This document shows, piece by piece, positions 5,016-25,678 of a stretch of 64,000 bases of DNA. Source of the stretch: Runella sp. MFBS21 (GTDB taxonomy: Bacteria; Bacteroidota; Bacteroidia; Cytophagales; Spirosomataceae). The stretch's first letter is position 1. Each line of letters begins with the position of its first letter. The position numbers were made by a program, and so were the translations under genes. Where the stretch lies: NCBI RefSeq assembly GCF_029433105.1, contig NZ_JARNTW010000001.1, forward strand, positions 310,001 through 374,000, given 5' to 3'. A model generated the notes under the pieces. The model was not told where the DNA came from and searched no databases. It saw nothing but the letters and a program-made list of their open reading frames with translations.

Positions 5016-5033
5016 TTGGGTAGAAGGTTCTAC
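5016..5033 (+). promoter_or_regulatory. Island motif TTGGG-N7-TTCTAC, copy F
   Basis: Gapless match to the copies at 10276-10293, 16147-16164 and 25661-25678. It lies about 100 bases before the GH13 gene start at 5134. Likely a promoter element or regulator site shared by the stress genes. Confidence 0.5.
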
Positions 5034-5133
5034 AAATTTTATGCTTCGGAAGTATTGAATTGAAGAGTTGTAAGTGGTATAGTTTTTTGTAAATCTTGAA
5101 TATCAAAGACTAACACTACAATTTAAAATATTT

Positions 5134-6954
5134 ATGGATATAGCCATTACCCCAAAGTATATAAAAAGTAAAGTAGGTGGTATGGGGGCCGTACCTACCG
5201 ATGAAGGGGTGTCGTTTAGAGTATGGGCTCCTAATGCACAAAAAGTATTTGTAACAGGTGACTTCAATGGTTGGGAAAAAGCGTCTATCGCGTTAACTCA
5301 CGAAGAAAACGGCTTTTGGTCAGTACAAGTACCGGAAGCCTCCACTGGACATCAATATAAATATGTCTTGAAAACAGCCCAAGGTGAATTAATGAGAAAT
5401 GACCCCTATGCGCGAGAAGTTACCAATTCGGTAGGCAATAGTGTGGTCGTTAATCCTTCGGATTTTGACTGGCAAAATGATCATTTTGATATGCCTTCTT
5501 TCAACAAAATGGTCATATATGAACTACACGTAGGAAGTTTTAACGTAAAGGAAGAAGGCAAAGCAGGGGATTTTTATGGCGTAATCGAAAAATTAGATTA
5601 TCTAAAATCTATTGGAGTTAATGTCATAGAATTGATGCCCGTGGCTGAGTTTCCGGGTGGTTTCTCTTGGGGCTATAATCCGGCTCATCCTTTTGCGGTA
5701 GAGTCAGAATATGGAGGTCCCAAAGCACTAAAAGAACTCGTGAAAGCAGCACATCAAAAAGGAATCGCGGTGGTGTTGGATGTAGTTTACAACCACTTTG
5801 GGCCTACTGATATGGATTTGTGGCAATTTGACGGTTGGCAAGAAAACGGTTTAGGGGGAATTTATTTTTATAACGACTGGCGCGCCAAAACTCCTTGGGG
5901 AGATACAAGGCCAGACTATGGAAGATCAGAAGTACGACAGTATATCCGTGACAATGCTCTCATGTGGCTTGAAGAATACCACATTGATGGCCTTAGGATG
6001 GATATGGTTCCGTATATCAGAAACGTAAACGCTGACGGAAATCCTGCCAATGACCTGGAAGAAGGGTATAAACTGATACAATGGGTCAATTCAGAGATTA
6101 AATCTAGGTACCCTGAAAAATTTACAGTAGCCGAAGATTTACATACGCTAGATGCCATTACAGCACCTGTCGAAAATGGAGGACTCGGCTATAGTAGTCA
6201 GTGGGATAGTCAATTTGTACATCCTATTAGAGATATTATTATCCAAATGCACGATGAGCATCGTAACATGGATGTAGTGGTGGCGTCTATTGTACACCGT
6301 TATAACAATGATGTTTTTGAAAGAGTCATTTATACAGAATCGCACGATGAAGTCTCCAACGGACAAGCTCGCGTAACACAGGAAATTGCGGGAGAGCAGG
6401 ATGTCGATAATTGGTATGCCAAAAAACGCTCTCTCTTAGGAGCTGCTCTTATGATGACAGCCCCTGGTATACCGATGCTGTTTCAAGGACAAACCATGCT
6501 GGAAGATGGCTGGTTTCAAGATACCGATCCTATCGATTGGTCACGGGTTTCGGAATTCAAAGGCATCACTAAGCTTTATCGGGATTTGATTCATTTACGT
6601 CTTGATTATAAAGGAATTACCAAAGGACTATCGGGGCAAAATGTAGAAATTTTACACGTTGATAACCAAAATAAGGTGGTGGCGTTTCAGCGTTGGATGG
6701 AGGGTGGCTCCAAAGATACCACGGTGATAGTAATGAATTTTTCGCAGCAACCCATCGAAAACTATAGTATTCGTTTTCCAATGCAAGGTCTGTGGAAAAT
6801 CAGGTTCAACAGTGATTGGGAAGGCTATGATAATGACTTTGATAGTCACTTTAGTTATGATATAGAAATAAATACATCCCAAAATGATGATTCTCATTGG
6901 ATGGCAGATGTTTCTTTAGGAGCTTACAGTACTATTATTTATTCACAAGATTAA
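5134..6954 (+). CDS. GH13 alpha-amylase-family enzyme, branching-enzyme or trehalohydrolase-like
   Basis: 606 residues. An N-terminal CBM48/isoamylase-N domain (about 18-110, with FRVWAPNAQKVFVTGDFNGW) is followed by a GH13 barrel. Catalytic motifs are visible: DVVYNH at 216-221, the nucleophile in GLRMD at D290, the acid/base in AED at E334, and SHD ending in D405. A C-terminal beta domain closes the protein. The layout fits 1,4-alpha-glucan branching enzymes and related maltooligosyltrehalose trehalohydrolases; the sequence alone does not settle which. There is no signal peptide, so it acts in the cytoplasm, probably on glycogen or trehalose as stress reserves. An island motif lies upstream. 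Confidence 0.85.
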   Translation: MDIAITPKYIKSKVGGMGAVPTDEGVSFRVWAPNAQKVFVTGDFNGWEKASIALTHEENGFWSVQVPEASTGHQYKYVLKTAQGELMRNDPYAREVTNSVGNSVVVNPSDFDWQNDHFDMPSFNKMVIYELHVGSFNVKEEGKAGDFYGVIEKLDYLKSIGVNVIELMPVAEFPGGFSWGYNPAHPFAVESEYGGPKALKELVKAAHQKGIAVVLDVVYNHFGPTDMDLWQFDGWQENGLGGIYFYNDWRAKTPWGDTRPDYGRSEVRQYIRDNALMWLEEYHIDGLRMDMVPYIRNVNADGNPANDLEEGYKLIQWVNSEIKSRYPEKFTVAEDLHTLDAITAPVENGGLGYSSQWDSQFVHPIRDIIIQMHDEHRNMDVVVASIVHRYNNDVFERVIYTESHDEVSNGQARVTQEIAGEQDVDNWYAKKRSLLGAALMMTAPGIPMLFQGQTMLEDGWFQDTDPIDWSRVSEFKGITKLYRDLIHLRLDYKGITKGLSGQNVEILHVDNQNKVVAFQRWMEGGSKDTTVIVMNFSQQPIENYSIRFPMQGLWKIRFNSDWEGYDNDFDSHFSYDIEINTSQNDDSHWMADVSLGAYSTIIYSQD

Positions 6955-6987
6955 TCAAAATTGTTTCACAATAAACTTACTAATAGA

Positions 6988-7446
6988 ATGAAAAGAGTAT
7001 TCAAAACCGCCGCAATGTTGTTGGCATTAGGAATGTTTACATTGACTAGCTGCTCAAGAGAAGATAAAAGAGAAGTAGCTGATGATGTGCAGAACGCACA
7101 AGACAAAGTAGAGGACACAGCTGATAATGTAGCTGAAGATGTAAAAGAAGCAGGCCAAGAAACCGCTGCTGAAATCGAAGCCGAACGTAAAGAAATGGCC
7201 GAAAAAATTGAAAAACGCAAAAAAGAAATCAATAAAGAATTAGACGAATTGGATGCGAAAATCAAAACGGCTAAGGCGAATGAAAAAGCAAAATGGGAAA
7301 AACGCCGCGCTAATCTTAAAGAAGATATCAATGAGCTAGATGCGGAAATGGCCGAAGTAAAAAAAGACATCAAACGAGATTGGAAGCAGTTTAAGCGTGA
7401 TCTAAATGCAAAGATTGACGACATGCAAAAAGATCTAGAAAACTAG
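6988..7446 (+). CDS. Lys/Glu-rich coiled-coil lipoprotein
   Basis: 152 residues from the ATG at 6988; an earlier TTG at 6961 is less likely because the lipoprotein leader starts at 6988. The signal ends in a lipobox LTSC with C22 as the lipidated residue. The rest is an almost unbroken charged helix with Asp/Lys/Glu heptads (VEDTADNVAEDVKEAG, then EKIEKRKKEINKELDELDAK). It is probably tethered to a membrane and forms a coiled coil. No enzyme motif is present. It resembles envelope-stress and LEA-like proteins, and related composition recurs at 10700 and 12989. Confidence 0.75.
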   Translation: MKRVFKTAAMLLALGMFTLTSCSREDKREVADDVQNAQDKVEDTADNVAEDVKEAGQETAAEIEAERKEMAEKIEKRKKEINKELDELDAKIKTAKANEKAKWEKRRANLKEDINELDAEMAEVKKDIKRDWKQFKRDLNAKIDDMQKDLEN

Positions 7447-7455
7447 TATACAATC

Positions 7456-7530
7456 AAATTCTGTTCGAAAAGTGAGTAGGCACCAAGTAATATATGGTAA
7501 GAAAAACTTTTCGGACAGAATTTTTTAATA
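7456..7530 (+). terminator. Hairpin terminator after the lipoprotein gene
   Basis: Arms 7456-7473 and 7506-7523 pair over 18 positions with one G-U pair, with a 32-base loop, and are followed by TTTTTT. It lies 10 bases after the lipoprotein stop. Confidence 0.65.
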
Positions 7531-7643
7531 AACAATATGAAAAATCGCTACACCATTGTCTTAAAGACATTATTTAAGGTCAGTCAATAAAACAACTCAA
7601 GCATATATCCACATAACAATAACACACCTAATTGAAGAGAGTC

Positions 7644-8021
7644 ATGGAAGAAGTGAAAGAGTCAATGGTGGTACAGTTGAGGAAATTGTGGGCGCTGTAC
7701 CTGCGACGCTTGCAAGTATGCAAGCAGCTCGAAAAACAATCGTTAGCTGAAGATAAAAGCACGTTTATCAAGCATTTTCAGGCCGAAACGCAGCTTTTTC
7801 TTAACGAAGCAAGCCAGTTTGATTGGATTCTTGGGCAAAAATGCTTGCCTATAGCTGTGGCTTGTAAAAGTCTGTATGAAGTTGATAATCATCTGATTAA
7901 AGTCTATGCTGTCTTGCAGAATGATACTTCTTGGGAACAAGAATACCCCGAGTTGTCGCGATTTCTGATGCGAAACTTGGGACGTATCAAGGCTTCTTTG
8001 GGGTTGACTCGCTATTTATGA
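7644..8021 (+). CDS. Hypothetical helical protein
   Basis: 125 residues from the ATG at 7644, which has an AGAGAG stretch a few bases upstream; a TTG at 7632 would add four residues. It is predicted to be all-helical and soluble, with a Leu/Arg-rich N-terminus (LRKLWALYLRRLQVCKQLEK) and no recognisable catalytic motif. I do not recognise a family. It stands alone between a terminator and the transglutaminase-like gene. Confidence 0.6.
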   Translation: MEEVKESMVVQLRKLWALYLRRLQVCKQLEKQSLAEDKSTFIKHFQAETQLFLNEASQFDWILGQKCLPIAVACKSLYEVDNHLIKVYAVLQNDTSWEQEYPELSRFLMRNLGRIKASLGLTRYL

Positions 8022-10205: not shown

Positions 10206-10223
10206 TAGATACATATTCCCCAA
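10206..10223 (-). promoter_or_regulatory. Island motif, partial copy C
   Basis: Minus-strand TTGGGGAATAT matches the first half of the 25661 copy exactly; the second half reads TCTA one base later than in the other copies. It lies just upstream of the DUF2383 gene. Confidence 0.35.
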
Positions 10224-10275
10224 AAAATCTAATACCACCTATTTTAGGGTAAAATTGAGGAGAGAAAACGGGGAC

Positions 10276-10293
10276 TTGGGGTGTTTTTTCTAC
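10276..10293 (+). promoter_or_regulatory. Island motif TTGGG-N7-TTCTAC, copy B
   Basis: TTGGGG, seven bases, TTCTAC, followed by AATATTT as in the copy at 25661. It lies about 85 bases before the small membrane gene at 10378. Confidence 0.5.
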
Positions 10294-10377
10294 AATATTT
10301 TTGAATACCTCACTGGCATCTGTTTTTCTGATAGATAAGTATCTAATAAGACGCCATACTCAAAACAATATATTGTT

Positions 10378-12805: not shown

Positions 12806-12926
12806 ACCTTTAATATTAGTTAAAAAATCGTGCCAGTATAATGTATTAGTGACAGATTGAATGCTCAATAAACCTCAAATTGGGGAAAAAAAGTAACATA
12901 ATCTGCTTTGAGATAGATATTCGAGT

Positions 12927-12954
12927 ATGGAATGGTTTTTTTTTGATGATATAC
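12927..12954 (+). promoter_or_regulatory. Shared leader element, copy 2
   Basis: ATGGAATGG, T9, GATGA and TATAC 35-62 bases before the YtxH gene, matching the element at 2600-2626 except for the T-run length. Confidence 0.35.
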
Positions 12955-13783: not shown

Positions 13784-14249
13784 GATTGAAACAGTTGATG
13801 ACCTGCGAGCTGAAAGAGCACGATTAAAAAACAAGTTGGAATTGTCTAGAATTCATATGCGAAAAGAAATAAATGCCATAAAAACAGAGCTTAGCCCTGC
13901 GCGACAGGCCGTAGGAGTGGTAAGTGATTTGTTGACTACTCCTCGGAAAGGGCTGTTGCCTATTGGGGTAGGGATTGGTGTAGACTTAATCCTGCGACGC
14001 ACCTTGCTCTCTAAAGCGGGCTGGCTTCCTCGGTTGATAGTCCCTCTTATAGTAAGGAATGTCACCACAAATCTTATTCAGAAAAACAAAACGAGTATCG
14101 TAGAAAAAGCCCTGATTTGGCTCAAAAAAGCCACTGATAAGCCTCAGTCTAAGCCACAGCTTATAGAGGCGGCGGCTCCTCAAAAATTGTTGCCAAGCCC
14201 TGCCAAGCTGAATGGCAAGGTTCAGCATCCGTCTTTTATGGATAATTAA
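13773..14249 (+). CDS. Hypothetical protein of the YtxH/holin-like operon
   Basis: 158 residues, overlapping the holin-like gene by 11 bases. N-terminal charged coil (VDDLRAERARLKNKLELSR), a middle part with hydrophobic stretches (GLLPIGVGIGVDLILRR and LPRLIVPLIVRNVTTNL) and a Lys/Pro-rich tail. It resembles in layout the third protein of YtxH/holin-type clusters in other Bacteroidota. No function known; likely membrane-associated. Confidence 0.75.
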   Translation: MKTKIETVDDLRAERARLKNKLELSRIHMRKEINAIKTELSPARQAVGVVSDLLTTPRKGLLPIGVGIGVDLILRRTLLSKAGWLPRLIVPLIVRNVTTNLIQKNKTSIVEKALIWLKKATDKPQSKPQLIEAAAPQKLLPSPAKLNGKVQHPSFMDN

Positions 14250-14692
14250 TAAAAAGCCTTAAAGGGTTCGGGTTTTATGGGTAAATGGGTAAGATTAATC
14301 CAAAACTTAACCAATGTTAGAATGGTATCATTGAAGACATCAAACGAAGAAGGTTTGGAAATGTAGCAGTTAGCACCTAAAGCATAACATTGGTTAACGT
14401 CTTTTTCTGATTTTGAGGTAGTCAATACCACTACTGGAATTTTGCGGAGCTTAGGCTCGGTTTTCAAAACTTTTAGTACCTCTCTTCCATCCATCCTAGG
14501 CATATTGAGATCAAGGATGATAAGCCCTACCGAAGCATCATTGTTGTCGGTACGGATGTATTCCAATAGCTCCAAACCATCTCCTACAAACACAGTTGGG
14601 TTGAGTAAATTACAATCGTCAAGGACAGATTGCAGCAAGTACCGGTCGTCGTCGTCGTCGTCGGCTATGAGGATAGTGGCGTTTCTGTTCAT
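14246..14692 (-). CDS. Rcp1-type single-domain response regulator
   Basis: 148 residues from the ATG at 14692, which overlaps the TGA of the upstream kinase gene (ATGA), a sign of translational coupling; a longer frame to 14809 would run inside the kinase gene. Motifs: LIADDDDDDRYLL acidic pocket, LIILDLNMPRMDGREVL phosphoacceptor, VVVLTTSKSEKD and ISKPSSF. The extended loop and 'NMPRMDGRE' signature are those of Rcp1-like regulators paired with cyanobacterial-phytochrome-type kinases. Partner: the CHASE3 kinase upstream. Confidence 0.92.
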   Translation of the reverse strand: MNRNATILIADDDDDDRYLLQSVLDDCNLLNPTVFVGDGLELLEYIRTDNNDASVGLIILDLNMPRMDGREVLKVLKTEPKLRKIPVVVLTTSKSEKDVNQCYALGANCYISKPSSFDVFNDTILTLVKFWINLTHLPIKPEPFKAFY

Positions 14693-16107
14693 AATTTCGG
14701 GGCTAAATGATTGGTTACTGGCAAATAGATGTGGAATATGGCTCCTTCTTGATTTGGTTTTGCCTCTGCAACTATAAACCCGTTGTGATTGGATACAATT
14801 CTGCGGCATAGTGCTAGACCAATTCCCGTGCCTTCATATTCAGACCGATTATGTAATCGTTGGAAAATTACGAAGATTTTTTCAGCATAAATAGGATCAA
14901 AACCTATACCATTATCTATAAACGAAATTTGGTGGTAAATGTTTTCTTTTAGATTGGTATTTATTCCTGCGATACTTTCCCCCAGCACCTGTTTATAAAC
15001 AATTTCGATTACGGGCGGAGTAGTGGGTTTGCTATACTTTATAGCATTAGAAATAAGATTGTTGAATAGCTGAATAATCTGAAATTCTATACCACTAATC
15101 ACCGGTAGCGTTACGCTTTTGATAGTCACTTTTTTCTTGGAGATAGTATCCGAAAACTCTTCTTGTATGCGCTTAACTAAAGTGTTGAGGTCAATCTCTT
15201 GGAAAATTTTTTCGCGCATATTTGCCGTTCTTGAAAACAACAACAAATCATCAATAAGTTGCTGCATTCGATTAGCTGATTGATTGATTTTGGTGAGGTT
15301 GGCTTTACCGTCTTCGCTGAGTTGATCGTATTGTTTTAGGATGAGCCTTTCGCCAAAGGCGCGGATTTTGCGCAGCGGCTCTTGTAAATCATGAGATGCT
15401 ACGTACGCAAACTGCTCAAGTTCAGCATTGGCCCGTTCTAAGTCGGTGAGCTTTTCTTCTAATGTCTTTTGGAAACTAATACGCCGCGAAAGCTCTACAT
15501 ACAATAATCGAAAGAAAATAAGCAAAAATGCCAAAGACACTACCGAAAGCAACAAAAGGTAAAAGTTGGTGTTGCGGTCGGCTATTTTTTGCATTTCGGC
15601 TCGTTGATTGAGTAGTTGGAGCTCGTCTTCTTCAAAATGCCGAGAAATTACCCTAATCTTATCCATTTCTTTTCGTCCTTCTTCTAGAGCCACTCCATCA
15701 AAATGCTGTTTGGCTTTTATACGGCTAATGTTTAGTTCAATTAGGTTTATGTGCCGTTGGATAAGCATGTTGATAGTATCTAAGCGCCGGAGTTGGAGGG
15801 GATTGTCTCGCACAAGCAGCCGGAAGTCACGAGTTACTTTTTTTAGTTTGTTTCTGCCTTCCGCATAAGGGTATAAATATTTTTCTTGGCCAGAGAGTAA
15901 GTAGCCTCTATGTCCGATTTCTATAATAGATAAAGTATTGGTCAAGTCTTTGTTTTTGAGACGTACTCGGTAGCTGTGATTCACCGATTCGGTGCGTCGG
16001 CCGGTTTCTTGTACTCGGTCGTAGGCGAGCCAGCTTAAAAAGATAAGCATGAATAAACTGACGGCCATTGCTAAAAAAATTCCCAACAAATCGTTGCGTA
16101 AAATCAT
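14689..16107 (-). CDS. CHASE3 sensor histidine kinase
   Basis: 472 residues. An N-terminal membrane helix (7-29), an extracytoplasmic CHASE3 helical sensor (about 35-178) and a second helix (182-205) lead to a coiled linker, a HisKA domain with H239 (in FAYVASHDLQEPLRKI) and a HATPase_c domain with N-box NLISNAIKYSK, DNGIGFD and GTGIGLALCR. It senses an unknown envelope signal and likely phosphorylates the coupled Rcp1-type regulator. A copy of the island motif lies upstream of its start on the same strand. Confidence 0.92.
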   Translation of the reverse strand: MILRNDLLGIFLAMAVSLFMLIFLSWLAYDRVQETGRRTESVNHSYRVRLKNKDLTNTLSIIEIGHRGYLLSGQEKYLYPYAEGRNKLKKVTRDFRLLVRDNPLQLRRLDTINMLIQRHINLIELNISRIKAKQHFDGVALEEGRKEMDKIRVISRHFEEDELQLLNQRAEMQKIADRNTNFYLLLLSVVSLAFLLIFFRLLYVELSRRISFQKTLEEKLTDLERANAELEQFAYVASHDLQEPLRKIRAFGERLILKQYDQLSEDGKANLTKINQSANRMQQLIDDLLLFSRTANMREKIFQEIDLNTLVKRIQEEFSDTISKKKVTIKSVTLPVISGIEFQIIQLFNNLISNAIKYSKPTTPPVIEIVYKQVLGESIAGINTNLKENIYHQISFIDNGIGFDPIYAEKIFVIFQRLHNRSEYEGTGIGLALCRRIVSNHNGFIVAEAKPNQEGAIFHIYLPVTNHLAPKL

Positions 16108-16146
16108 AAGGGTGATGAATCTGTGGCTTATTTTCTACAAATAAAT

Positions 16147-16164
16147 GTAGAGAAAAATACCCAA
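16147..16164 (-). promoter_or_regulatory. Island motif TTGGG-N7-CTCTAC, copy D
   Basis: On the minus strand, 40-57 bases upstream of the kinase start. It overlaps an inverted repeat TCTACA-N6-TGTAGA (16135-16152) and a CCCAATTTGGG palindrome (16160-16170) whose other arm points toward rpoN. Confidence 0.5.
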
Positions 16165-16359
16165 TTTGGGTAAAAAATCGTTTTAGTATAAAACTATAAA
16201 ATCATAATATGTGTTGTATATAAAAAGTTTGAAAAATGTAATGTATTGATTTTTAGGGTTTTTTGTAGATTTAGACTCGTAAATATAAATTTTAATTGAA
16301 TGTAATTACTTACTGAGGCATCCAATTTGGTAGATAAAACCAAAAAATGTTGTCCAACA

Positions 16360-17787
16360 ATGGCGGCTCCTATGCTAAACCTCGTACAATCTCAAAAGCA
16401 AACGCTGAAGATATCTCCGGCGCAAATTCAGTTGCTCAATTTTTTGCAGTTGAATACGCTTGAGCTTGAGCAGCATATTAAAAATGAGCTTGAAGAAAAC
16501 CCACTACTTGAAGAAGGGACAGAAGAGTCTGATGATAATTTTGGGGATGATTTTAATACCCCCGCCAAGGCCGAAGACCGTACGCAAGATTACATGGATT
16601 GGGATGAATTCAAGGATGATGATATGCCAGATTATCGTACTCGAGTCAACAATTATGCCGATGACGATACTAATTATACGCCCATTGTGGTAGAAGCTGT
16701 CACTTGGCGTCAAGAACTCAAGGAGCAATTTCACTTACTGCCCCTCAACGAACGCCAGCAAATATTAGCTGATTTTGTGATAGATTCTTTGACCGACGAA
16801 GGCTACCTTAACTACACTGCGGAGGCATTGGCCGATGACGTATCTTTTACAAGTGGAATTTTTGTAGAAGAAACGGAAGTCCAAGAGATAGTTGAAATCT
16901 TACGTAAAATGGATCCGCCGGGTCTAGGGGCGCGTGATTTGCAAGATTGCTTGTTGCTTCAATTAGAGCGCCGTTCAGATAAAGAAGCCGAATTAGCTAC
17001 GCTTATCATAAAAAAATATTTTGACGAACTAGCCGCTCGCAATTATGAAAAACTAATGCGCGCTTGCGGGATTTCGTCAGAAGAACTTAAAGAAGTAATT
17101 GCACTTATTGCTTCGCTCAATCCGCAGCCTGTCATGGGTAGTCAGATTGACAGTTTTGTGATCAAAGACAACATTGTACCCGACTATATTGTCAGAGTGG
17201 ACGGAGACCTAATCGAAGTAGAGCTCAACAACCGCCGTATTCCACCTTTACGCGTCAATAAGTCATATGCGCAAGAAGTAGGAGGTACTCGTGCTGCTAA
17301 TACCTACGTCAATTCTAAACTTAATGCTGCCAATTGGCTGATTGATGCAATTCAACAGCGCGAAAATACCATGCTCAAATCAATGAGAGCTATCGTCAAA
17401 CTACAAGAAGAATATTTCCATACAGGGGATATTCGTAGGCTAAAGCCGATGGTATTGAGAGACGTAGCGGAGCGTATTCAAATGGATGTATCTACTGTGT
17501 CACGCGTTACGAGTGGTAAATATGCCCAAACTCCGTTTGGCGTCATTCATCTCAAAGACTTGTTTACGGAAGGAATCGTAACCCAAAGTGGAGAGGAAGT
17601 ATCTAATCGACAGATACAACTGGCATTGGTAGAACTGGTGTCGCAAGAAGATAAGCAAAGCCCGCTCAACGATTTTCAGTTGGCCGAAATGCTCAGCGAC
17701 AAAGGATATTCGGTAGCGCGTAGAACAGTCGCCAAATACCGTGAGCAAATGGATATACCAACGGCCTCATTGCGGAGGGTATTGTAA
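16360..17787 (+). CDS. rpoN: RNA polymerase sigma-54 factor
   Basis: 475 residues from the ATG at 16360 (MAAPMLNLVQSQKQ); a TTG at 16327 would add 11 residues of unlike character. Region I (activator-interacting, Gln/Leu-rich) is LNLVQSQKQTLKISPAQIQLLNFLQ, followed by an acidic region II, the core-binding domain (about 115-310) and the C-terminal DNA-binding part with the RpoN box ARRTVAKYRE near the end. It directs core polymerase to -24/-12 promoters and needs an AAA+ activator; one is encoded at 18234. It may serve the island, though no perfect -24/-12 site was found here. Confidence 0.93.
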   Translation: MAAPMLNLVQSQKQTLKISPAQIQLLNFLQLNTLELEQHIKNELEENPLLEEGTEESDDNFGDDFNTPAKAEDRTQDYMDWDEFKDDDMPDYRTRVNNYADDDTNYTPIVVEAVTWRQELKEQFHLLPLNERQQILADFVIDSLTDEGYLNYTAEALADDVSFTSGIFVEETEVQEIVEILRKMDPPGLGARDLQDCLLLQLERRSDKEAELATLIIKKYFDELAARNYEKLMRACGISSEELKEVIALIASLNPQPVMGSQIDSFVIKDNIVPDYIVRVDGDLIEVELNNRRIPPLRVNKSYAQEVGGTRAANTYVNSKLNAANWLIDAIQQRENTMLKSMRAIVKLQEEYFHTGDIRRLKPMVLRDVAERIQMDVSTVSRVTSGKYAQTPFGVIHLKDLFTEGIVTQSGEEVSNRQIQLALVELVSQEDKQSPLNDFQLAEMLSDKGYSVARRTVAKYREQMDIPTASLRRVL

Positions 17788-18233: not shown

Positions 18234-19709
18234 ATGGAAAATAGAATATTGGTCATTGATGATGACACCGACATTTGTTTATTACTACGCCGTTTTTTGA
18301 CCAAAAACGGCTTTGAAGTTGCAATCGCTCATACAGGTGCGACGGGATTGGCGACGCTTGAAGAATTTCGCCCTGATTTGGTTTTGACAGATTTTCGTTT
18401 GGGTGACATGGACGGAACAACCATCTTGACCAATATCAAAGAAAAATTCCCTAGTGTGCCGGTACTTATTATTACGGGCTACTCTGACATCAAAATTGCT
18501 ATCAATGTCATGAAACAAGGGGCTTATGATTACATCACTAAGCCTTTGTTTCCGGATGAGATTTTACTTACAATTAAAAAGGCCCTAAAAGCTTCTCAAG
18601 AAGCTTCTGAGGCCGATACTACCGTAGAAGTAACCAATACTACTTCTAGCCCCACAGGGAGTCGTCGTAAAAGTAGCACTCAAGCGCAGTATATTTTTGG
18701 GGAAGGCCCTGAGTCTGTGTATCTCTACAAACAAGTAGATTTGGTAGCTCCTACCAATTACAGCGTGTTGATTTACGGAGAAAGCGGCTCAGGCAAAGAG
18801 GCTGTTGCACTCGAAATCCATAAACGTAGTAAAAGAGCAAATGGACCTTTCATTGCGATGGATTGCGGGGCGATTTCGAAAGAACTAGCCGCTAGTGAGT
18901 TGTTTGGGCACGAGAAAGGTTCTTTTACGGGAGCAGTAGGCCAAAAAATCGGCCATTTTGAAATGGCCAACGGAGGTACTTTGTTTTTGGACGAAGTCGG
19001 CAATCTACCCTACGATGTCCAAATGTCGCTTTTGAGGGTAGTGCAAGAACGAAAATTGCGGCGTATTGGCGGAAACCGTGAGATAGATGTAGATGTAAGG
19101 CTGATTGTAGCTTCCAACGAGCGCTTGATTGAGGCAGCTCGAAAGGGTAAATTTCGTGAAGATTTGTACTATCGCTTCAACGAATTTAGTATCGACGTAC
19201 CTCCTCTCAGAGACCGACGCTCTGATTTACTGACTTTTGCACAATTTTTCTTGGATAAGACCAACGCCGAATTGAGCAAACAAGTCAAGGGCTTTACGCC
19301 CGAAGTAGAGAGAGCTTTTAAGGAATATCCTTGGCCAGGTAATTTGAGAGAGATGAGAAATATCATTCGTCGGTCAACATTACTTACCGAAGGCGATAAG
19401 ATAGACATCCGTACGCTACCTTTTGAGCTTATCAATTATGATAGGTTGTTGTTTTTAGAACCAAACAATCCATCCCTCCCCGAACCTTCTCCTTATACTA
19501 GCTATGAAGCTCCGGCTCCGTCGATTCCGGCTAAGGTGGTGCCTGCTCCCAAAGTAGATTTGAAGTCGGCAGCTCTCGAAGCCGAATATGAAATGATTCT
19601 GAACGTTTTGAAGCAAGTAAACTTCAACAAAAGTAAGGCAGCCCAAGCCTTAGGAATAGATCGTAAGACATTATACAACAAAATGAAAAATATCAATCTT
19701 AGTAACTAA
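18234..19709 (+). CDS. NtrC-family sigma-54-dependent response regulator
   Basis: 491 residues. Receiver domain 1-120 with phosphoacceptor D53 (VLTDFRLGD); AAA+ domain about 150-390 with Walker A GESGSGKE (182-189), the sigma-54 contact loop as GSFTGA (229-234; consensus GAFTGA, so a Ser variant), and Walker B FLDEVG (251-256); C-terminal Fis-type helix-turn-helix KSKAAQALGIDRKTLYNKMK. It activates RpoN-dependent promoters when phosphorylated. Its stop overlaps the next kinase start (TAATG), so the kinase at 19709 is the likely partner. Confidence 0.93.
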   Translation: MENRILVIDDDTDICLLLRRFLTKNGFEVAIAHTGATGLATLEEFRPDLVLTDFRLGDMDGTTILTNIKEKFPSVPVLIITGYSDIKIAINVMKQGAYDYITKPLFPDEILLTIKKALKASQEASEADTTVEVTNTTSSPTGSRRKSSTQAQYIFGEGPESVYLYKQVDLVAPTNYSVLIYGESGSGKEAVALEIHKRSKRANGPFIAMDCGAISKELAASELFGHEKGSFTGAVGQKIGHFEMANGGTLFLDEVGNLPYDVQMSLLRVVQERKLRRIGGNREIDVDVRLIVASNERLIEAARKGKFREDLYYRFNEFSIDVPPLRDRRSDLLTFAQFFLDKTNAELSKQVKGFTPEVERAFKEYPWPGNLREMRNIIRRSTLLTEGDKIDIRTLPFELINYDRLLFLEPNNPSLPEPSPYTSYEAPAPSIPAKVVPAPKVDLKSAALEAEYEMILNVLKQVNFNKSKAAQALGIDRKTLYNKMKNINLSN

Positions 19710-21310
19710 TGCTGCCGCCCAATCATCAAGATAATGCTGTAAAGCCTTTTGCTTTGAGTTTTTCTCAAAGTCAAATGGAAGCGCTATTGCAAAATTCTCC
19801 TGATTTGGTATACATTGTAGATTTAAGATTGCAAAGCCTAATCTTCATAAATGAGAGAGTTAGTGATATTCTGGGCTATAGTATGGCTGAAGCAGAGACA
19901 CTAGTTCAAAAGTTATCATCCATTGTGGTTCACTCGGATATAGCCTCTTTAGGCGAAGCTTTACTTACTAGATTTAGATTACTCCCTTCCAATGAAACCG
20001 CAGAGTTTCATTTAAAATTACGACACAAAGACGGCTCGGTACGTACTTTACGTCATCGCTGTAGAGCGATGATAAAAGAGGGTGGAGAAAATACCCAAAT
20101 CATGGGAACCGCCGAAGACGTGACCGATAGCTCTAGCCGAGAACTTGCGTATCAAAAAAACCAATATCAGCTCAAAGAAGCAGAGGTAATATTTAAGTGT
20201 GGAAGCTGGGAGTGGCAATCTCACGAAACATGCATGAGATGGTCTGATGGATTATTTAGGGTATTTGAATTGTCGCCAGACCAGTATCCTGATAGATGTA
20301 TTGAGTATAAGGTTTATGAAAGTTTTATATACCAAGAAGACGTTGTTAAGGTACGAAATTATGTAAGGCAGCTATTGTCAGAAAAGCGCGGAACTTTGGA
20401 TTTAGAGCATCGTATTATAGATGCCAAAGGAGTCCTTAAATACATCACTCTACGTGCCAAATGCTATTTTGATGAAAAAGGCAAACTTGCCCGCCTCATG
20501 GGAGTAGCCGCAGACCGTACCGAAATCGAAAGCTACCAAAATGAGCTGGAAAGACGCCTCATCGCGCTCAAAAAAAGCAATCAAGAATTGGAGCAATTTG
20601 CTTATGTAGCTTCTCATGACCTACAAGAGCCTCTTCGTAAAATCATTGCTTTTGGAGAGCGGTTGGATAAAAAATACAAAGAGCAACTCGGCACAGAGGG
20701 ACAGTTTTTTATAGCTCGTATGACCAACGCCGCCAATAGGATGCATGGGCTTATTGAAGATTTGTTGACGTATTCGCGGGCTTCGCGGCAATTAGAATCC
20801 CAAGAACCCATTTCGCTTAATGAGGTAGCAAAAGAGGTATTGGAAGATTTAGAAGTGAAAATTCAAGATAAAAAAGCGGTTGTTGAAGTAGACGACTTAC
20901 CCACTATCGAGGCACAGTCCACCCAAATGCACCAGCTTTTTCTGAACCTCATTGAAAATGCACTGAAATTTACTAAACCTGACCAAGAGCCAATGGTTCA
21001 GGTGAGGGTTCGGAAAGCTACCCTACCAGAAATAAAAGCAATACCCCAACTCAATCCACACCAATCTTATTTTTGCTTTACTGTGAAAGACAATGGCATT
21101 GGTTTTGAGCCTCAGTATGCAGAACAAATTTTTGCGATATTTCAAAGATTACATGGGAGATCAGAATATGAGGGGACAGGTTTGGGATTGGCGATTTGTC
21201 GCAAAATTGTCGAATCCCATCAAGGGTATATTGGAGCTCGTGGAAATATAGGCGAAGGAGCTGAGTTTTATTTTTATTTGCCACACCGTCGGTCCGGCGT
21301 TTCGGCTTAG
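19709..21310 (+). CDS. PAS-domain sensor histidine kinase
   Basis: 533 residues. Two PAS folds (about 20-145, with FINERVSDILGYSMAEAE, and 160-275), a HisKA domain with H303 (FAYVASHDLQEPLRK) and a HATPase_c domain (NLIENALKFTK, DNGIGFEPQYAEQIF, GTGLGLAICRKIVE). No membrane helix, so it is a cytoplasmic sensor. Its start overlaps the stop of the NtrC-type gene by one base and a single-domain regulator follows 36 bases later, so it could feed both. Confidence 0.92.
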   Translation: MLPPNHQDNAVKPFALSFSQSQMEALLQNSPDLVYIVDLRLQSLIFINERVSDILGYSMAEAETLVQKLSSIVVHSDIASLGEALLTRFRLLPSNETAEFHLKLRHKDGSVRTLRHRCRAMIKEGGENTQIMGTAEDVTDSSSRELAYQKNQYQLKEAEVIFKCGSWEWQSHETCMRWSDGLFRVFELSPDQYPDRCIEYKVYESFIYQEDVVKVRNYVRQLLSEKRGTLDLEHRIIDAKGVLKYITLRAKCYFDEKGKLARLMGVAADRTEIESYQNELERRLIALKKSNQELEQFAYVASHDLQEPLRKIIAFGERLDKKYKEQLGTEGQFFIARMTNAANRMHGLIEDLLTYSRASRQLESQEPISLNEVAKEVLEDLEVKIQDKKAVVEVDDLPTIEAQSTQMHQLFLNLIENALKFTKPDQEPMVQVRVRKATLPEIKAIPQLNPHQSYFCFTVKDNGIGFEPQYAEQIFAIFQRLHGRSEYEGTGLGLAICRKIVESHQGYIGARGNIGEGAEFYFYLPHRRSGVSA

Positions 21311-21345
21311 TACATGGTAGAACTTTTTAGTTCTACCCTAACCTA

Positions 21346-21825
21346 ATGCATCTTATGAACAGTACAGACAGTAAGCAAACCAAGGAAAGTGTTTTGATAT
21401 TAGTCGCTGACGACGATGAAGATGATCGGATGTTTACCAAAGAAGCCTTTGAAGAAAACCATTTACTGAATGATATTCGGTTTGTGAATGATGGTGTAGA
21501 GCTGATGGATTATCTCAAACGGCGCGCCAAATACGCTAACCCTGCCGATAGCCCGCGCCCAGGTATTATCTTATTGGATTTGAATATGCCCAAAATGGAC
21601 GGTCGTGAGGCGTTGAAGGAAATCAAATCAGACCCTACGCTCAAGACCATTCCAGTAGTAGTACTTACTACTTCAAAAACCGAAAAAGATGTGTTACAAA
21701 CCTATGATTTGGGGGTGAATTGTTTTATTACAAAACCTGTCACTTTTTCAAGTTTTATTGAAGTTACCCGCACCTTGGGGCATTATTGGTTCGATATCGT
21801 CAAGCTACCCAATTCTCAAGATTGA
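21346..21825 (+). CDS. Rcp1-type single-domain response regulator
   Basis: 159 residues, receiver domain only (LVADDDEDDRMFTKEAF, IILLDLNMPKMDGREALKE, VVVLTTSKTEKDVLQ, FITKPVTF). It is a close paralogue of the regulator at 14246, and both follow kinases with identical H-boxes (FAYVASHDLQEPLRK), so the two kinase/regulator pairs probably arose by duplication. A second ATG nine bases downstream is possible. Confidence 0.92.
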   Translation: MHLMNSTDSKQTKESVLILVADDDEDDRMFTKEAFEENHLLNDIRFVNDGVELMDYLKRRAKYANPADSPRPGIILLDLNMPKMDGREALKEIKSDPTLKTIPVVVLTTSKTEKDVLQTYDLGVNCFITKPVTFSSFIEVTRTLGHYWFDIVKLPNSQD

Positions 21826-22014
21826 TGCGACAAAAGATAGGGTGAGTTGGGAGTTCGATAATGTAACCATCATACGACTTCGCTGTGATAAGTGCTAAGT
21901 TGTGGAATATCAGTGCCTTCAAGAATGAGTGCCTATTGGCCAATTATTATATTTCCGAATTACTGAATTATCATATTTTCAAACTGTTACATTCTCAAAC
22001 TTTCAAATTACCTA

Positions 22015-23484
22015 ATGTCGAAAGATATCATTAAGCTTCTCATTGTAGATGATGATGAGGATGATTTTTTCTTAACCTCAGATTATCTAAAAGATATTCG
22101 TTCAAAAAAATTTGATATTACTTGGGCTAGTTCTTTTAGCAAAGGAGTAGAGCAGCTAGCGCAGTCAAAGTTTGACCTCTGTTTTTTTGATTTTTTATTA
22201 GGAGCCAAAACGGGGCTGGATTTGCTTAAATCTGCTCTTCAAAATGGAGTGAGCTGTCCTATTGTCTTACTGACAGGCAAGGGAGACCAGCAAGTAGACC
22301 TAGAAGCCATGCGACTTGGGGCGATGGACTACTTGGTAAAGAGTGAGCTTGACTCCGAAAAGCTAGAGCGTTGTATCAGATATGCTCTTGAGCGAGCGGA
22401 AGTACTGCGGCGCTTGCGAGAGAGTGAAACGCGTCTTCGGGGTATTTTTTCTCAACTGAAAGACGCTGTACTGCTCAAATGGCCCAAAGGGGGCTCTATA
22501 TTTTATTTCAACGATGCCGCGCTTGACCTTCTTGGTTATGAAGAAAACGAAATATTACAACTTTCAATGCGCCACTTATGTGCTATCTCTACTCAGCACG
22601 ATGAATATGTTCATACATTAGAAGAAAAGGGAATTCTGGAAAATTTTGAAGTATGGCTCGTCCGAAAAAGTGGGGAACGTGTGCTATGCTCTCTCCATGC
22701 TAGTAAACAAAACGACAGCGAAGGGAAGTTGTATTATTTGCTGGTTATTCAAAATATCACAGCTCGCAAAAAAGTTGAAAGAGACCGACTATTGGCCGAA
22801 AAATCTGCTTCGACAGCGCGCTTGATACGTACTTTAGCGCATGAGGTACGCAATCCACTTACCAATATTCACTTATCACTCGATCAGCTAGAGTCTGAAT
22901 TTACGACCGAAGACCAACGTCTTTTTGGGGATATTATTCGTCGCAACGGAAAGCGTATCAATGCTCTTATTACTGAATTACTAAATTCTTTCAAGCCCCA
23001 AGAAACAATCCTCAAGCAGGTATCTATTCAAGATATACTAGATCTGACGCTCAATGAAGCCATTGATAGAATCAACCTCAAAAAAATAACCCTTATAAAA
23101 GAATATGGGGAAGATTGCTTCTTGCAGCTTGACGAACCCAAAATCAAAATCGCCTTTCTCAATCTCATTATCAATGCCGTAGAAGCAATGGAAGAAAACG
23201 TAGGCCTACTCACCATAGCTACGCATGTAGCTGGTCAATCGTGCTTTGTCGAAATCAAAGACAATGGGACGGGTATCAGTCCTGAAAACTTGAATCGCCT
23301 GTTTGAGCCTTATTTTACTTCCAAAAACAACGGCTTAGGCTTGGGACTTGCTTCTACATTTACGATTCTTCAATCTCACAAAGCATCGGTAGAAGTGGAG
23401 TCGGAGTTAGGGCAAGGCACTACTTTTACGGTCACTTTTCCTCTGGGAGAAAAGCTACCTGAAAATTTAGTTATTAGTAATTAA
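22015..23484 (+). CDS. Response regulator-PAS-histidine kinase hybrid
   Basis: 489 residues. Receiver domain first (1-125, acidic DDDEDD at 12-17, phosphoacceptor D59), then a PAS domain (about 140-250), then a HisKA of the NtrB/HWE-like 'HEVRNPL' class with H276 and a HATPase_c domain (NLIINAVEAMEE, DNGTGISPENLNRLFEP, GLGLGLASTF). No membrane helix. It follows the regulator at 21346 after 190 bases, probably from its own promoter. An intrinsic terminator comes after the stop. Confidence 0.92.
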   Translation: MSKDIIKLLIVDDDEDDFFLTSDYLKDIRSKKFDITWASSFSKGVEQLAQSKFDLCFFDFLLGAKTGLDLLKSALQNGVSCPIVLLTGKGDQQVDLEAMRLGAMDYLVKSELDSEKLERCIRYALERAEVLRRLRESETRLRGIFSQLKDAVLLKWPKGGSIFYFNDAALDLLGYEENEILQLSMRHLCAISTQHDEYVHTLEEKGILENFEVWLVRKSGERVLCSLHASKQNDSEGKLYYLLVIQNITARKKVERDRLLAEKSASTARLIRTLAHEVRNPLTNIHLSLDQLESEFTTEDQRLFGDIIRRNGKRINALITELLNSFKPQETILKQVSIQDILDLTLNEAIDRINLKKITLIKEYGEDCFLQLDEPKIKIAFLNLIINAVEAMEENVGLLTIATHVAGQSCFVEIKDNGTGISPENLNRLFEPYFTSKNNGLGLGLASTFTILQSHKASVEVESELGQGTTFTVTFPLGEKLPENLVISN

Positions 23485-23717
23485 ATCTTTGTAGGAGGCA
23501 AAGGACTTACAAACACAAACACCTCCTTATTTGAGTTATTTAAAAAAATTAAAGGGGCGGCATTCGCCCTTTTATTTTTTATGATGAAAGATGTTGTAAA
23601 AACAGCAGTAGTCTTTTTTGATAGGCTATCCTTGGGAGAAGCTTTAGGAGGTTGGTAGCTACCATACATTAGATAGTGGGCTACCAACGCAAATCCAAAT
23701 AAGGCATTCGTTTTCAT
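23481..23717 (-). CDS. Possible small protein with hydrophobic N-terminus
   Basis: 78 residues: a short hydrophobic start (MKTNALFGFALVAHYLMYGS) then a basic, Ser/Pro-containing tail. It overlaps the kinase gene on the other strand by four bases and runs through the terminator hairpin at 23550-23580, which speaks against a conserved gene. The TspO-like gene lies 35 bases upstream on the same strand. Unrecognised; may be spurious. Confidence 0.3.
   Translation of the reverse strand: MKTNALFGFALVAHYLMYGSYQPPKASPKDSLSKKTTAVFTTSFIIKNKRANAAPLIFLNNSNKEVFVFVSPLPPTKI
23550..23580 (+). terminator. Intrinsic terminator
   Basis: GGGCG/CGCCC hairpin with a 5-base loop in the stretch 23555-23570, followed by TTTTATTTTTT; about 70 bases after the kinase stop. 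Confidence 0.7.
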
Positions 23718-23752
23718 ATCTAAAAGGAAGGAAAGTAGGGGAAATATTATTA

Positions 23753-24616
23753 CTATTCTTGAACGATTACTTGTTCATGGGTGGAAGTAATAACTACTCT
23801 TTTAGAAGAATTGCTTCTAAAGAGAGAACGTGTAAACTCAATGATGACCATAGCCGTAAGCAATAATGCTCCAAACACTGCCGACCACGCAATAAAACGG
23901 TAATACACATCAGCATTGATACGGGCAATCAAAATACCACAGAAAGCCCAAATTACGGACAAACCTAAATAGGCATTTTGGGTTTTAAACAAAGCCCATG
24001 TAGTAATCAGCGCTCCTACAAAAATCATGGTACATGCCCAGAAGGTTTCGGTATTGCCCCAGCCATTCCAGCCACTATTTACGAGAAGAGCGGTTATGTT
24101 AGCAATCGTTGCGATACAAATCCACCCTAGATAAGTGCCAAAAGCCGCTTTGACCGTAAAACGTGAGCCACTAGCTAAAAAAGGAGCAATTTGTTTTACT
24201 TTTAGATTGATATGTACCAATTGGGCCAATAACAGCAACATCACCACCACCGAAAACTGAATGTATCCATAATGCCATGAAAGAATCCACAGGGCGTTGA
24301 GGATAGAGGTAATCATAAAACCCGCACCTACCGTAGATACTGTATCTCCAGTGGCGTCGTCTACGGTACTACTAAAAAGAGATTTGCTCTGCTTAATACA
24401 AAACACAAGCAATAAAAGATAAATCACTCCCCAAATGGAAAATGTAATAGGAGCGGGTACGAAGAGGTTGGTGTATTGATCCGAAACTTCTCCGGTTGTT
24501 TTTCCATTGAGAGGCAGGGCGTTGGCCAAATAATTAACGAATATCATCACTCCAAAGAAAACCCAATTGAGGACTTGGAGGATTTTGACGGTTGATTTAC
24601 TCCAAATAGTTTTCAT
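23753..24616 (-). CDS. TspO/MBR-like tryptophan-rich sensory protein
   Basis: 287 residues, about nine hydrophobic helices with many tryptophans (for example VFFGVMIFVNYLANALPLNG, TFSIWGVIYLLLLVFCI, NALWILSWHYGYIQFSVVVM, YLGWICIATIANITALLVNSGW). This is the long Bacteroidota form related to TspO, a membrane tetrapyrrole/cholesterol-binding stress sensor; the typical TspO is 160 residues, so the function may differ. It follows the YihY gene by 26 bases on the same strand, so an operon is likely. Confidence 0.85.
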   Translation of the reverse strand: MKTIWSKSTVKILQVLNWVFFGVMIFVNYLANALPLNGKTTGEVSDQYTNLFVPAPITFSIWGVIYLLLLVFCIKQSKSLFSSTVDDATGDTVSTVGAGFMITSILNALWILSWHYGYIQFSVVVMLLLLAQLVHINLKVKQIAPFLASGSRFTVKAAFGTYLGWICIATIANITALLVNSGWNGWGNTETFWACTMIFVGALITTWALFKTQNAYLGLSVIWAFCGILIARINADVYYRFIAWSAVFGALLLTAMVIIEFTRSLFRSNSSKRVVITSTHEQVIVQE

Positions 24617-24642
24617 GATGTATATATAAGTTTATGTTAAGA

Positions 24643-25575
24643 CTAAGAAGTATGAGGCATGTGTGCTTTGGCAGGGAGTGTTACTTCTTCTTTCAGAATA
24701 CGTACGGCATACGAGCCGGGCTTAATGCCTGAGCCGAGGCTGTTGGCGTAGACCTTGGTAAACTCAGCACCGAAGTACAAAATCACTGACGAATAATAAA
24801 CCCACAATAAAATAATTACGACAGAACCAGCGGCACCATAAGCATTGCCGATATTGGACTGACCCAAGTAAAGCCCAATGGCGTATTTGCCAATCATAAA
24901 TAAAATGGCTGTCACGCCGGCACCAATGAAGGTGTCTTTCCAGGCCACTTTCCCGTCGGGCAAAACACTAAATATGACCGCAAATAAAACCGTCATCACA
25001 CCCCATATGACGGCTATGTTAAGAATCCAAAAAAGATAAATAGTAGCTTCCGAAAACAAGGCCATTATCTTTTCGCTGAATAAGTTGAGAAGCGCATTGA
25101 GCAACAACGACACAATAAATAAAAAGCCTAATGAAATAATCAACGAAAACGACAATAAGCGATTGGTGAGGTATTTCAAAAAACCGCTTTTAGGCTTGGG
25201 TTTAATCGACCAAATCTGATTGATTGAATCTTGAATCTCAGCAAATACCCCTGTAGCCCCGATAAGTAATGTAACCACACCAATAACAGCGGCAATGCCA
25301 GTTTTACCAGAAAGCTGGGCGTTTTTGATTAGTTCTTGTATTTGTGTCGCCGCCTGACTACCAATCAGCCAACTAATTTGACTATAAAGCTGCCCTTGTA
25401 CGGCATCGCGTCCATAAAAAACTCCCACAACTGACATAAATACCAATAGCATGGGAGCCAGAGAAAATAACGTATAATAAGACAGTGATGCACTCAGCTT
25501 GAGGGCTTTATCGTTGGTGAATTCTTGAAAAGCTTCTTTAAGTAGTGAAAAGTATGTTTTCCAAGATGTAATCAT
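24643..25575 (-). CDS. YihY/BrkB family inner-membrane protein
   Basis: 310 residues from the ATG at 25575 (MITSWKTYFSLLKEAFQEF); an ATG eight codons earlier is also open. The family signature is present: AFQEFTNDKALKLSASLSYYTLFSLAPMLLVFMSVVG, then NQIWSIKPKPKSGFLKYLTNRLLSFSLI and the C-terminal NAYGAAGSVVIILLWVYYSSVILYFGAEFTKVY. About six membrane helices. Once mis-named ribonuclease BN; its role is unknown, with hints of envelope stability. First gene of the YihY-TspO unit. Confidence 0.92.
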   Translation of the reverse strand: MITSWKTYFSLLKEAFQEFTNDKALKLSASLSYYTLFSLAPMLLVFMSVVGVFYGRDAVQGQLYSQISWLIGSQAATQIQELIKNAQLSGKTGIAAVIGVVTLLIGATGVFAEIQDSINQIWSIKPKPKSGFLKYLTNRLLSFSLIISLGFLFIVSLLLNALLNLFSEKIMALFSEATIYLFWILNIAVIWGVMTVLFAVIFSVLPDGKVAWKDTFIGAGVTAILFMIGKYAIGLYLGQSNIGNAYGAAGSVVIILLWVYYSSVILYFGAEFTKVYANSLGSGIKPGSYAVRILKEEVTLPAKAHMPHTS

Positions 25576-25660
25576 GATAGAAGTGTGAGTTAAGTACAAG
25601 ATTAGTAGTTAATTATAATATATATCACCAACAACCATTCCAAGGGTATTGTTGCAGACT

Positions 25661-25678
25661 TTGGGGAATATTTTCTAC
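25661..25678 (+). promoter_or_regulatory. Island motif TTGGG-N7-TTCTAC, copy A
   Basis: TTGGGGAATATTTTCTAC, followed by GTTATTTG. It lies about 120 bases upstream of the small membrane gene at 25800. The copies at 5016, 10276 and 16147 align with it without gaps. Confidence 0.5.

Follow-up and report, generated by a model that had tools for sequence, protein, structure and literature searches.

A palindromic putative enhancer and helically phased sigma-54 elements in the RpoN2 island of Runella sp. MFBS21

The window analyzed here, a 64-kb stretch of contig NZ_JARNTW010000001.1 of Runella sp. MFBS21, contains an island of stress-type genes around rpoN2, the gene for a second sigma-54 factor. 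A sequence-only reading of the window had reported an 18-bp motif, TTGGG-N7-TTCTAC, before several of these genes; this motif, the palindrome of which it is a form and the sigma-54 elements next to it are the subject of this analysis. Genes were called mechanically, as longest open reading frames (ORFs), and score thresholds were picked by eye, with several tried. The regulatory cassette of the island comprises the following genes.

16360..17787, plus strand: rpoN2, second sigma-54 gene of the genome, start judged from relatives (the ORF opens at 16327)
18234..19709, plus strand: enhancer-binding response regulator with receiver (PF00072), AAA+ (PF00158, with GSFTGA) and Fis-type helix-turn-helix (HTH; PF02954) domains, proposed binder of the palindrome
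19709..23484, plus strand: PAS histidine kinase (19709-21310, by Pfam), with response regulator 21346 and receiver-kinase 22015 called by eye, same conserved cassette
14246..16107, minus strand: CHASE3 histidine kinase (by Pfam) and response regulator (by eye), divergent from rpoN2, same cassette

RpoN2 matches PF00309, PF04963 and PF04552 (Sigma54_AID, CBD and DBD) as well as TIGR02395 above cut-off. The genome (7.88 Mb) has two sigma-54 genes, one in the island and the other on contig C12; RpoN2 is 41% identical to the RpoN1 of its own genome and 97% identical to the RpoN2 of Runella zeae. In a tree of 117 sequences, 37 RpoN2 sequences form a clade apart from standard RpoN (FastTree support 0.969), and with the sequences of divergent cassettes a larger clade of 49 (support 0.804), and seven of the nine positions of the RpoN box ARRTVAKYR are invariant in 37/37 RpoN2. 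The island is syntenic in two congeners (loci L084 and L085), and the cassette core (a CHASE3-type kinase and regulator divergent from rpoN2, the NtrC-type regulator and further kinases) was found again at many of the other loci examined. A homologue of regulator 18234, hereafter the activator, with 63–82% identity lies at most 1.1 kb from rpoN2 in 21 of 21 genomes, and at most 0.5 kb in 20; these are the genomes with an RpoN2 hit of at least 52% identity among 61 searched, our own genome included. Relatives of the activator that were read have a GAFTGA or GSFTGA loop. By sequence its best solved relatives are the NtrC-family structures 4l4u and 1ny5, and it falls below the cut-off of every NCBIfam model among the matches listed (25 of 115). 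The genome has six strong activator homologues, one without an HTH at its end, and the recognition helix IDRKTLYNK is found solely in that of the island.

For motif discovery de novo, we used 246 upstream regions (45.7 kb) from the window island and 17 other RpoN2 islands. Expectation-maximisation (EM) from random starts returned as its top motif a palindrome, TG.GGAAaattTTcC.CA, and as a second kind TGGcAt..tTTTTT. The former is an 18-bp element, TGkRGAA-N4-TTCYnCA, upstream of genes in RpoN2 islands, and the latter is an element of the sigma-54 -24/-12 type (TGGnAT-N5-TTTT), mostly located downstream of the palindrome. TTGGG-N7-TTCTAC is a local, degenerate version of this palindrome: when the upstream regions of three Runella islands are aligned, the exact motif is not kept and a looser TGGGGAA...C form is. 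The resemblance of TTTTCCACAA to the DnaA box was dropped as an explanation, since the half-site is unconstrained at its middle base. Scored with position weight matrices (PWMs), the window has palindromes at seven places (2561, 3665, 5015, 10275, 12879, 16120/16144 and 25660; that at 12879 is weak), listed here with their sigma-54 elements.

2561..2582: palindromic site A, AATGAGGTACGAATTCCACAAA, PWM 13.3 on one strand and 14.0 on the other, upstream of a gene for an outer-membrane beta-barrel (probable start 2649)
2600..2617, plus strand: sigma-54 element ATGGAATGGTTTTTTGAT of the 2649 gene, PWM 14.6, ~18–19 bp from site A by coordinates
3665..3686: palindromic site B, PWM 18.4/17.8, between a proline-rich ORF (3611, minus strand) and an AI-2E family transporter (3813, plus strand)
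3643..3660, minus strand: sigma-54 element GTGGCACAGGTTTTTCAA, PWM 17.5, ~6 bp from site B by coordinates
3703..3720, plus strand: sigma-54 element TTGGAATACATTTTTAGC of the AI-2E transporter 3813, PWM 10.0, gap 18
5015..5036: palindromic site C (earlier 5016), PWM 15.3/14.2, before the GH13 gene 5134
5074..5091, plus strand: sigma-54 element GTGGTATAGTTTTTTGTA of the GH13 gene, PWM 15.2, gap 39
10275..10296: palindromic site D (earlier 10276), PWM 15.2/15.7, between DUF2383 (10181, minus strand) and a small membrane gene (10378, plus strand)
10221..10238, minus strand: sigma-54 element GTGGTATTAGATTTTTTG of DUF2383, PWM 13.0, gap 38
10313..10330, plus strand: sigma-54 element CTGGCATCTGTTTTTCTG of the 10378 gene, PWM 16.1, gap 18
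12879..12900: weak palindromic site E (earlier the fragment TTGGGGAA), PWM 9.4, between response regulator 12718 (minus strand) and YtxH 12989 (plus strand)
12819..12836, minus strand: sigma-54 element CTGGCACGATTTTTTAAC of response regulator 12718, PWM 17.9, ~44 bp from site E by coordinates
12927..12944, plus strand: sigma-54 element ATGGAATGGTTTTTTTTT of YtxH, PWM 15.0, gap 28
16120-16141 and 16144-16165: tandem palindromic sites F (the latter earlier 16147), PWM 15.2/16.8 and 14.1/14.2, between the CHASE3 kinase (16107, minus strand) and rpoN2 (plus strand)
16315..16332, plus strand: sigma-54-like element GAGGCATCCAATTTGGTA before rpoN2, PWM 9.2, ~150 bp from sites F
25660..25681: palindromic site G (earlier 25661), PWM 18.9/18.6, between a BrkB gene (minus strand) and an lmo0937/DUF5670 gene (plus strand)
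25626..25643, minus strand: sigma-54 element TTGGAATGGTTGTTGGTG of BrkB, PWM 12.7 (8.2 with a Runella-free matrix), gap 18
25731..25748, plus strand: sigma-54 element CTGGCATAGCTATTTGAA of the DUF5670 gene (probable start 25800), PWM 15.2, gap 51

The motif was present as reported, with exact copies at 5016-5033, 10276-10293 and 25661-25678 and a single mismatch at 16147-16164 (minus strand). The three exact copies compare with 0.031 expected from base composition in the 64-kb window and with 0.0015 expected in the intergenic DNA of the island, where all three lie. The contrast with shuffled DNA also held: the two-mismatch pattern occurs 45 times in coding and noncoding DNA together, whereas 100 shuffles average 18.1. 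Sites 2561-2582 and 3665-3686, both in control regions, had been overlooked; the former is flagged as coding solely through an over-extended mechanical ORF (2514-3311). The fragment at 12880 before YtxH is a weak site with a sigma-54 element on either side, and the orthologous regions in L084 and L085 are better conserved (PWM 17.2 and 19.1), with a spacing of likewise ~44 to the element of the response regulator orthologues. At four of the seven places (3665, 10275, 12879 and 25660) sigma-54 elements lie on both sides, toward the divergent genes, which explains the odd partial copy claimed at 10206-10223. That copy has more than two mismatches. Its TTGGGG overlaps the DUF2383 element at 10221-10238 at the -12 end and continues beyond it; it is rejected as a copy of the motif, and the palindrome at 10276, read in the backward direction, would serve DUF2383. 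That all copies point toward their gene has little meaning for a palindromic site with about equal scores on both strands.

As written, TTGGG-N7-TTCTAC is not specific. The genome has 21 exact matches (2 for a reversed control), contrary to the claim that no copy lies outside the control regions of the island, and 17 of them overlap ORFs of at least 150 aa. The four outside such ORFs (~0.36 expected in that part of the genome) are the three of the window, at 85, 86 and 101 bp from their genes, and a further match 89 bp upstream of the gene for an MlaE-like permease. Of the exact matches in 39 genomes, 20 places and the 30 first-listed loci were read, and most of these fall in ORFs. A scan of relatives, as the sequence-only reading had proposed, gave no exact match in 20 other rpoN2 loci (L084-L103), because the exact motif is the local form of the palindrome.

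The distance between the two elements, which was used in the training of neither matrix, follows the turn of the DNA helix. Among 54 training regions above both thresholds, the sigma-54 element lies 5–85 bp downstream of the palindrome in 37, in the reverse order in 7 and farther apart in 10. After removal of orthologues 25 spacings remain: 7, 10, 18 (three times), 20, 29 (three times), 38–41 (five times), 51 (three times), 58, 72, 73, 77 and 81, plus 44, 46 and 48, which belong to regulator gene 12353 and its relatives. These have a period of 10.5 bp (Rayleigh p = 2.6e-4, n = 25); with orthologues kept, p is 3e-6 to 6e-6 at a lower element threshold and 4e-5 to 5e-5 at a higher one. Periods of 6–9.5 and 12–16 bp give p of at least 0.1, and within 6–16 bp there is no comparable peak outside 10–11. 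The start of the -24 element is mostly ~7, 18, 29, 39, 50, 61 or 72 bp away from the palindrome, which puts the two on one face of the helix. As expected of an upstream activating sequence, the palindrome precedes a sigma-54 promoter element and, with exceptions, keeps to that face.

This arrangement bears on the proposal that the motif itself serves RpoN2 as an alternative -24/-12 promoter, in which TTGGG would be the -24 part and TTCTAC the -12 part. TTGG and TT do stand in register with TTGGCACGNNNNTTGC, the consensus of such promoters, and the RpoN2 gene lies within the island. The element is symmetric, however, scores about equally on both strands, occurs in tandem at 16120-16165, lies between divergent genes at variable distances from them, and is accompanied downstream by separate TGGnA-N6-TTT elements at helically phased distances; it also survives in genomes without RpoN2 (see below). 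We reject this reading as highly improbable. The absence of a -12 GC, which had been remarked on, does recur, although in the downstream promoter elements rather than in the motif. A promoter of the extracytoplasmic-function (ECF) sigma factor 9003 is more improbable still and is likewise rejected. The ECF gene does lie in the island and is retained in two congeners, but promoters of the sigma-70 family, ECF included, have -35 and -10 elements ~16–17 bp apart, and a spacer of 7 bp is too short for that. With sigma-54 the motif can be explained without an ECF factor, and no ECF-like gene was noticed by eye in the parts of the gene lists read for the other loci (no family search was made).

In 14 loci outside the training set (206 upstream regions), the palindrome was found in 28 regions (0 reversed), the sigma-54 element in 41 (7 reversed) and both jointly in 19 (0 reversed), the joint hits coming from 8 of the 14 loci; L121-L123, L144-L154 and L180 include congeners of the training islands. 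The test-locus spacings are again periodic, both at 10.5 bp (p = 7.8e-3) and at 11 bp (p = 8.5e-4). The control set, 847 regions in all, consisted of 69 from the surroundings of RpoN1 genes, 102 taken at random from the own genome, 25 from the rest of the window and 651 from 63 other RpoN loci, mostly of Bacteroidota; 4 of these regions have the palindrome and none the joint arrangement. Training without the three Runella islands recovered the palindrome, and 5 of 19 window regions then score jointly; dinucleotide shuffles of these regions give a mean of 0.01, and 0/200 reach 5. Given this and the 3 exact matches against 0.031 expected, a chance origin of the sites is rejected.

The palindrome tracks the activator and not the sigma factor, because it is kept in genomes without RpoN2 while the promoter element there is more canonical and more distant. 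Seventeen genomes have an activator homologue of 49–53% identity (presumed orthologous) and a single RpoN. At the 11 of these 17 activator loci that were examined, 42/206 upstream regions have the palindrome (0 reversed), and recognition helix IDRKTLYNK is identical in 10 of the 11 (10 proteins were readable). By contrast, in 10 genomes without an activator homologue (E 1e-100), 0/13 YtxH loci read have the palindrome or promoter at the thresholds used. These 13, of 16 in total, comprise 8 clear YtxH genes, 4 below the Pfam cut-off and 1 (L283) evidently wrong ORF; the YtxH genes of activator-less genomes may be another subfamily.

These observations also bear on the possibility that the palindrome is the operator of another dimeric regulator, of the cassette or unlinked to it, co-inherited with sigma-54 promoters. 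Other response regulators are indeed present in the cassette. Regulator 12353, however, has by Pfam a receiver domain alone, the helically phased spacing fits an activator that touches the polymerase, and the site stays with the activator in RpoN2-less genomes and is missing before the YtxH loci read in genomes without it. We consider such an operator unlikely.

To compare promoters with and without RpoN2, they were chosen downstream of palindromes by the -24 part alone (TGG[ACT]A[CT]), with -12 ignored and identical strings merged. C at -12 occurs in 8/54 distinct promoters with RpoN2 against 17/25 without (p = 4.9e-6), and C at -24 (the fourth position of TGGC) in 9/54 against 19/25 (p = 5.3e-7). 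At -12 the promoters of RpoN2 islands depart from the canonical GC (G in 2/54, C in 8/54), and divergent-cassette promoters have C at -12 in 1/6. The GG at -24, fixed by selection in this comparison, was recovered by EM at 94–95%. The median distance from palindrome to promoter is 41.5 bp with RpoN2 and 109 bp without (p = 1.1e-5); distances without RpoN2 are also periodic (p = 1.1e-3 at 10.5 and 8.4e-5 at 11; 18 best cases, rich in orthologues). In RpoN2 itself the RpoN box, which reads -24, is unchanged, and the residues right after the -12 helix differ, being TSG or TTG-like in RpoN2 and mostly A/S-N-S in other RpoN; we take these residues as leads only.

The T-rich -12 may reflect a changed specificity of RpoN2, with drift toward AT as a live rival. 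On the latter account it would reflect AT-rich intergenic DNA or weak promoters, which we hold to be quite possible, at less than even probability. The base composition of the two genome sets is unmatched, orthologous promoters were counted several times, and E. coli RpoN also has T at one residue that differs here. Set against this are the contrasts at -12 and -24 given above, obtained with a selection blind to -12.

Taken together, the motif very probably acts as an enhancer, or upstream activating sequence, in a stress regulon under sigma-54, and is read by the NtrC-type regulator 18234, which would work together with RpoN2. This agrees with the regulator site that the sequence-only reading had offered as one option, and supports its view that the stress-type genes have a control element in common that is connected with the island's RpoN gene. 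The kinases of the cassette would phosphorylate regulator 18234, whose Fis-type domains, judging from co-conservation, would bind TGkRGAA-N4-TTCYnCA, and whose AAA+ ring would contact RNA polymerase with RpoN2 at the TGGnAT-N5-TTTT promoter. A single palindrome may serve one promoter on each side. Autoregulation of rpoN2 through sites F and the element at 16315-16332, which is conserved in L084 and L085 (PWM 11.5 in both), is possible, and the tandem palindromes ~150 bp before the rpoN2 promoter might then make the system self-reinforcing.

In or beside the island, a site with a sigma-54 element precedes the genes for the beta-barrel, AI-2E transporter, GH13, DUF2383, small membrane, YtxH, response regulator, BrkB and lmo0937-type proteins; elsewhere in the genome it precedes MlaE-like and superoxide-dismutase-like genes (names recognised from sequence). 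For the superoxide-dismutase-like gene (L239:1553; G000:C1, ~132050, minus strand) the palindrome scores 16.9 and the sigma-54 element 17.5, at a spacing of 18. DUF2383, YtxH, lmo0937-type, GH13 and BrkB genes are likely targets. We take the lmo0937-type, DUF2383, YtxH and Dps-like genes of the island, and the superoxide-dismutase-like gene elsewhere, to resemble general-stress genes, and "stress regulon" is accordingly a reading of gene content. Searches with half-site and promoter patterns gave totals near those of reversed controls (19 against 11, and 11 against 10); PWM scoring of the loci so found singled out the island sites, the MlaE and superoxide dismutase genes, the AI-2E site and a weak case, L249 (palindrome 10.0, spacing 64).

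Several observations weigh against the enhancer reading. The CHASE3 kinase beside site F has no sigma-54 element (best score 1.6). Coding DNA of the window also has palindrome-matrix matches of 11 or more at 464, 2997, 4089, 8788, 22436 and 28315 (for the last, the ORF is the small one at 28075-28377), and there are nine further sigma-54 matrix matches of 12 or more, eight coding and one intergenic (38062); these six and nine matches must be due to chance. The 17/54 training regions with reverse order (7) or greater distance (10) did not enter the period test, and two of the spacings that did, 10 and 77, depart from the series. Genome-wide, counts of the strict palindrome do not tell genomes with the activator from those without: it occurs 151 times in the 51 with it (reversed, 61 times) and 16 times in the 10 without (reversed, 7 times). 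Loci of close relatives, and hence their orthologous sites, are not independent of one another. Finally, 6 of the 14 test loci are without a joint hit: L144, L145, L147 and L148 have no palindrome at threshold, and L122 and L123 have 2 and 3 palindromes and no pair. L148 is a 4.9-kb piece only, and in the species or isolate of L144, L145 and L147 the other rpoN2 locus (L180, L151 and L154, respectively) does have pairs.

General stress responses are known under sigma-B, RpoS or PhyR-EcfG. Here the switch would instead be sigma-54 with an ATP-driven activator. With NtrC/ZraR-type regulators the activator shares the receiver, sigma-54 AAA+ and Fis-type HTH domains and a palindrome upstream of the promoter; the site, TGkRGAA-N4-TTCYnCA, and its close, phased spacing in RpoN2 islands differ. 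Paralogous sigma-54 factors, each with its own activator, are described for Cereibacter (Rhodobacter) sphaeroides, namely RpoN1/NifA, RpoN2/FleQ and RpoN3/AprX, with RpoN1 and RpoN2 promoters discriminated at -11 (PMC11999139, PMC3162934). The Runella system is alike in combining a sigma-54 paralogue, its own enhancer-binding activator and a small change in promoter preference. It differs in phylum, in its stress-type genes (the Cereibacter targets are nitrogen fixation, flagella and a repressor gene), in having rpoN2, activator and several kinases in one cassette, and in that the difference lies at -12 and the -24 C. One of these sources also mentions two RpoN promoter consensus sequences differing at -12 in B. 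japonicum (PMC3162934). A stress-linked second RpoN is named for Bradyrhizobium (PMC13207237), an unrelated lineage that likewise has two RpoN proteins; no account was seen there of a cassette that combines an activator of its own with this enhancer. Cytophagia are named once, for chaperone genes, in a 2025 sigma-54 regulon survey, the main text of which does not mention Runella, Spirosoma or Dyadobacter (PMC12316311). In the open-access literature, which excludes most subscription papers, we found no paper on this enhancer, its spacing, its target set or a sigma-54 stress regulon in this group.

More broadly, part of the Runella/Emticicia/Flectobacillus family may rely for general stress responses on a dedicated second sigma-54 and its partner activator rather than on a sigma-B- or RpoS-like factor. 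Once the activator had gained a sigma factor of its own, the shared promoters would have drifted from a canonical TGGCAY...C to a T-rich -12 and an AT-rich -24, the enhancer would have come to lie only a few helical turns from the promoter, and the old and new sigma factors would in this way have become insulated; genomes with the activator and without RpoN2 would represent the other state. We consider this wider scenario conceivable, at somewhat less than even probability. If true, enhancer, helical spacing and promoter would together form a regulatory code from which a stress regulon can be read, there would be a natural comparison of the same kind of activator and enhancer with and without RpoN2, and the insulation of paralogous sigma-54 factors, studied in Cereibacter, would become directly testable.

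At the four near-RpoN2 loci L124-L127 the palindrome occurs in 7/52 regions and the joint arrangement in 0/52. Divergent rpoN2-activator cassettes (L261-L269, in G045, G047, G059, G070, G083, G040 and G048) have the palindrome in 29/126 regions (0 reversed), before their own genes, and some of these genomes have two activators each. Runella limosa, R. defluvii and one Runella metagenome-assembled genome each have two RpoN2-type loci (L145 and L151, L144 and L180, L147 and L154, respectively), with palindromes nearby solely at the second of each pair. L089, L090 and L091 are solitary rpoN genes; their genomes (G071, G046 and G084) have two RpoN2-like genes, one of them solitary beside lysS-like and cold-shock-like genes, and no third in the identity range of RpoN1 among the matches listed, so that RpoN1 may have been replaced there.

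Of DUF5670 genes class-wide, 20 of 30 loci were read and two have the palindrome, that of Runella sp. MFBS21 and one other. In a distant genome of the class (L290 in G114) a palindrome (15.1) and a sigma-54 element (14.5), 126 apart, lie before an lmo0937-type gene, and the system may reach beyond the family. In four congeners the exact motif lies 72–83 bp before a conserved secreted-protein gene (L104:1500, L108, L112:1500 and L050:1519), with a sigma-54-like element (8.3–12.6) at spacing 10 in three of the four. Within the window, positions 16100-16175 have overlapping layers of inverted repeats (TACCCAA/TTGGGTA and CTAC/GTAG) with, by eye, compensating changes relative to L084 and L085, which would fit half-sites that are recognised in several registers.

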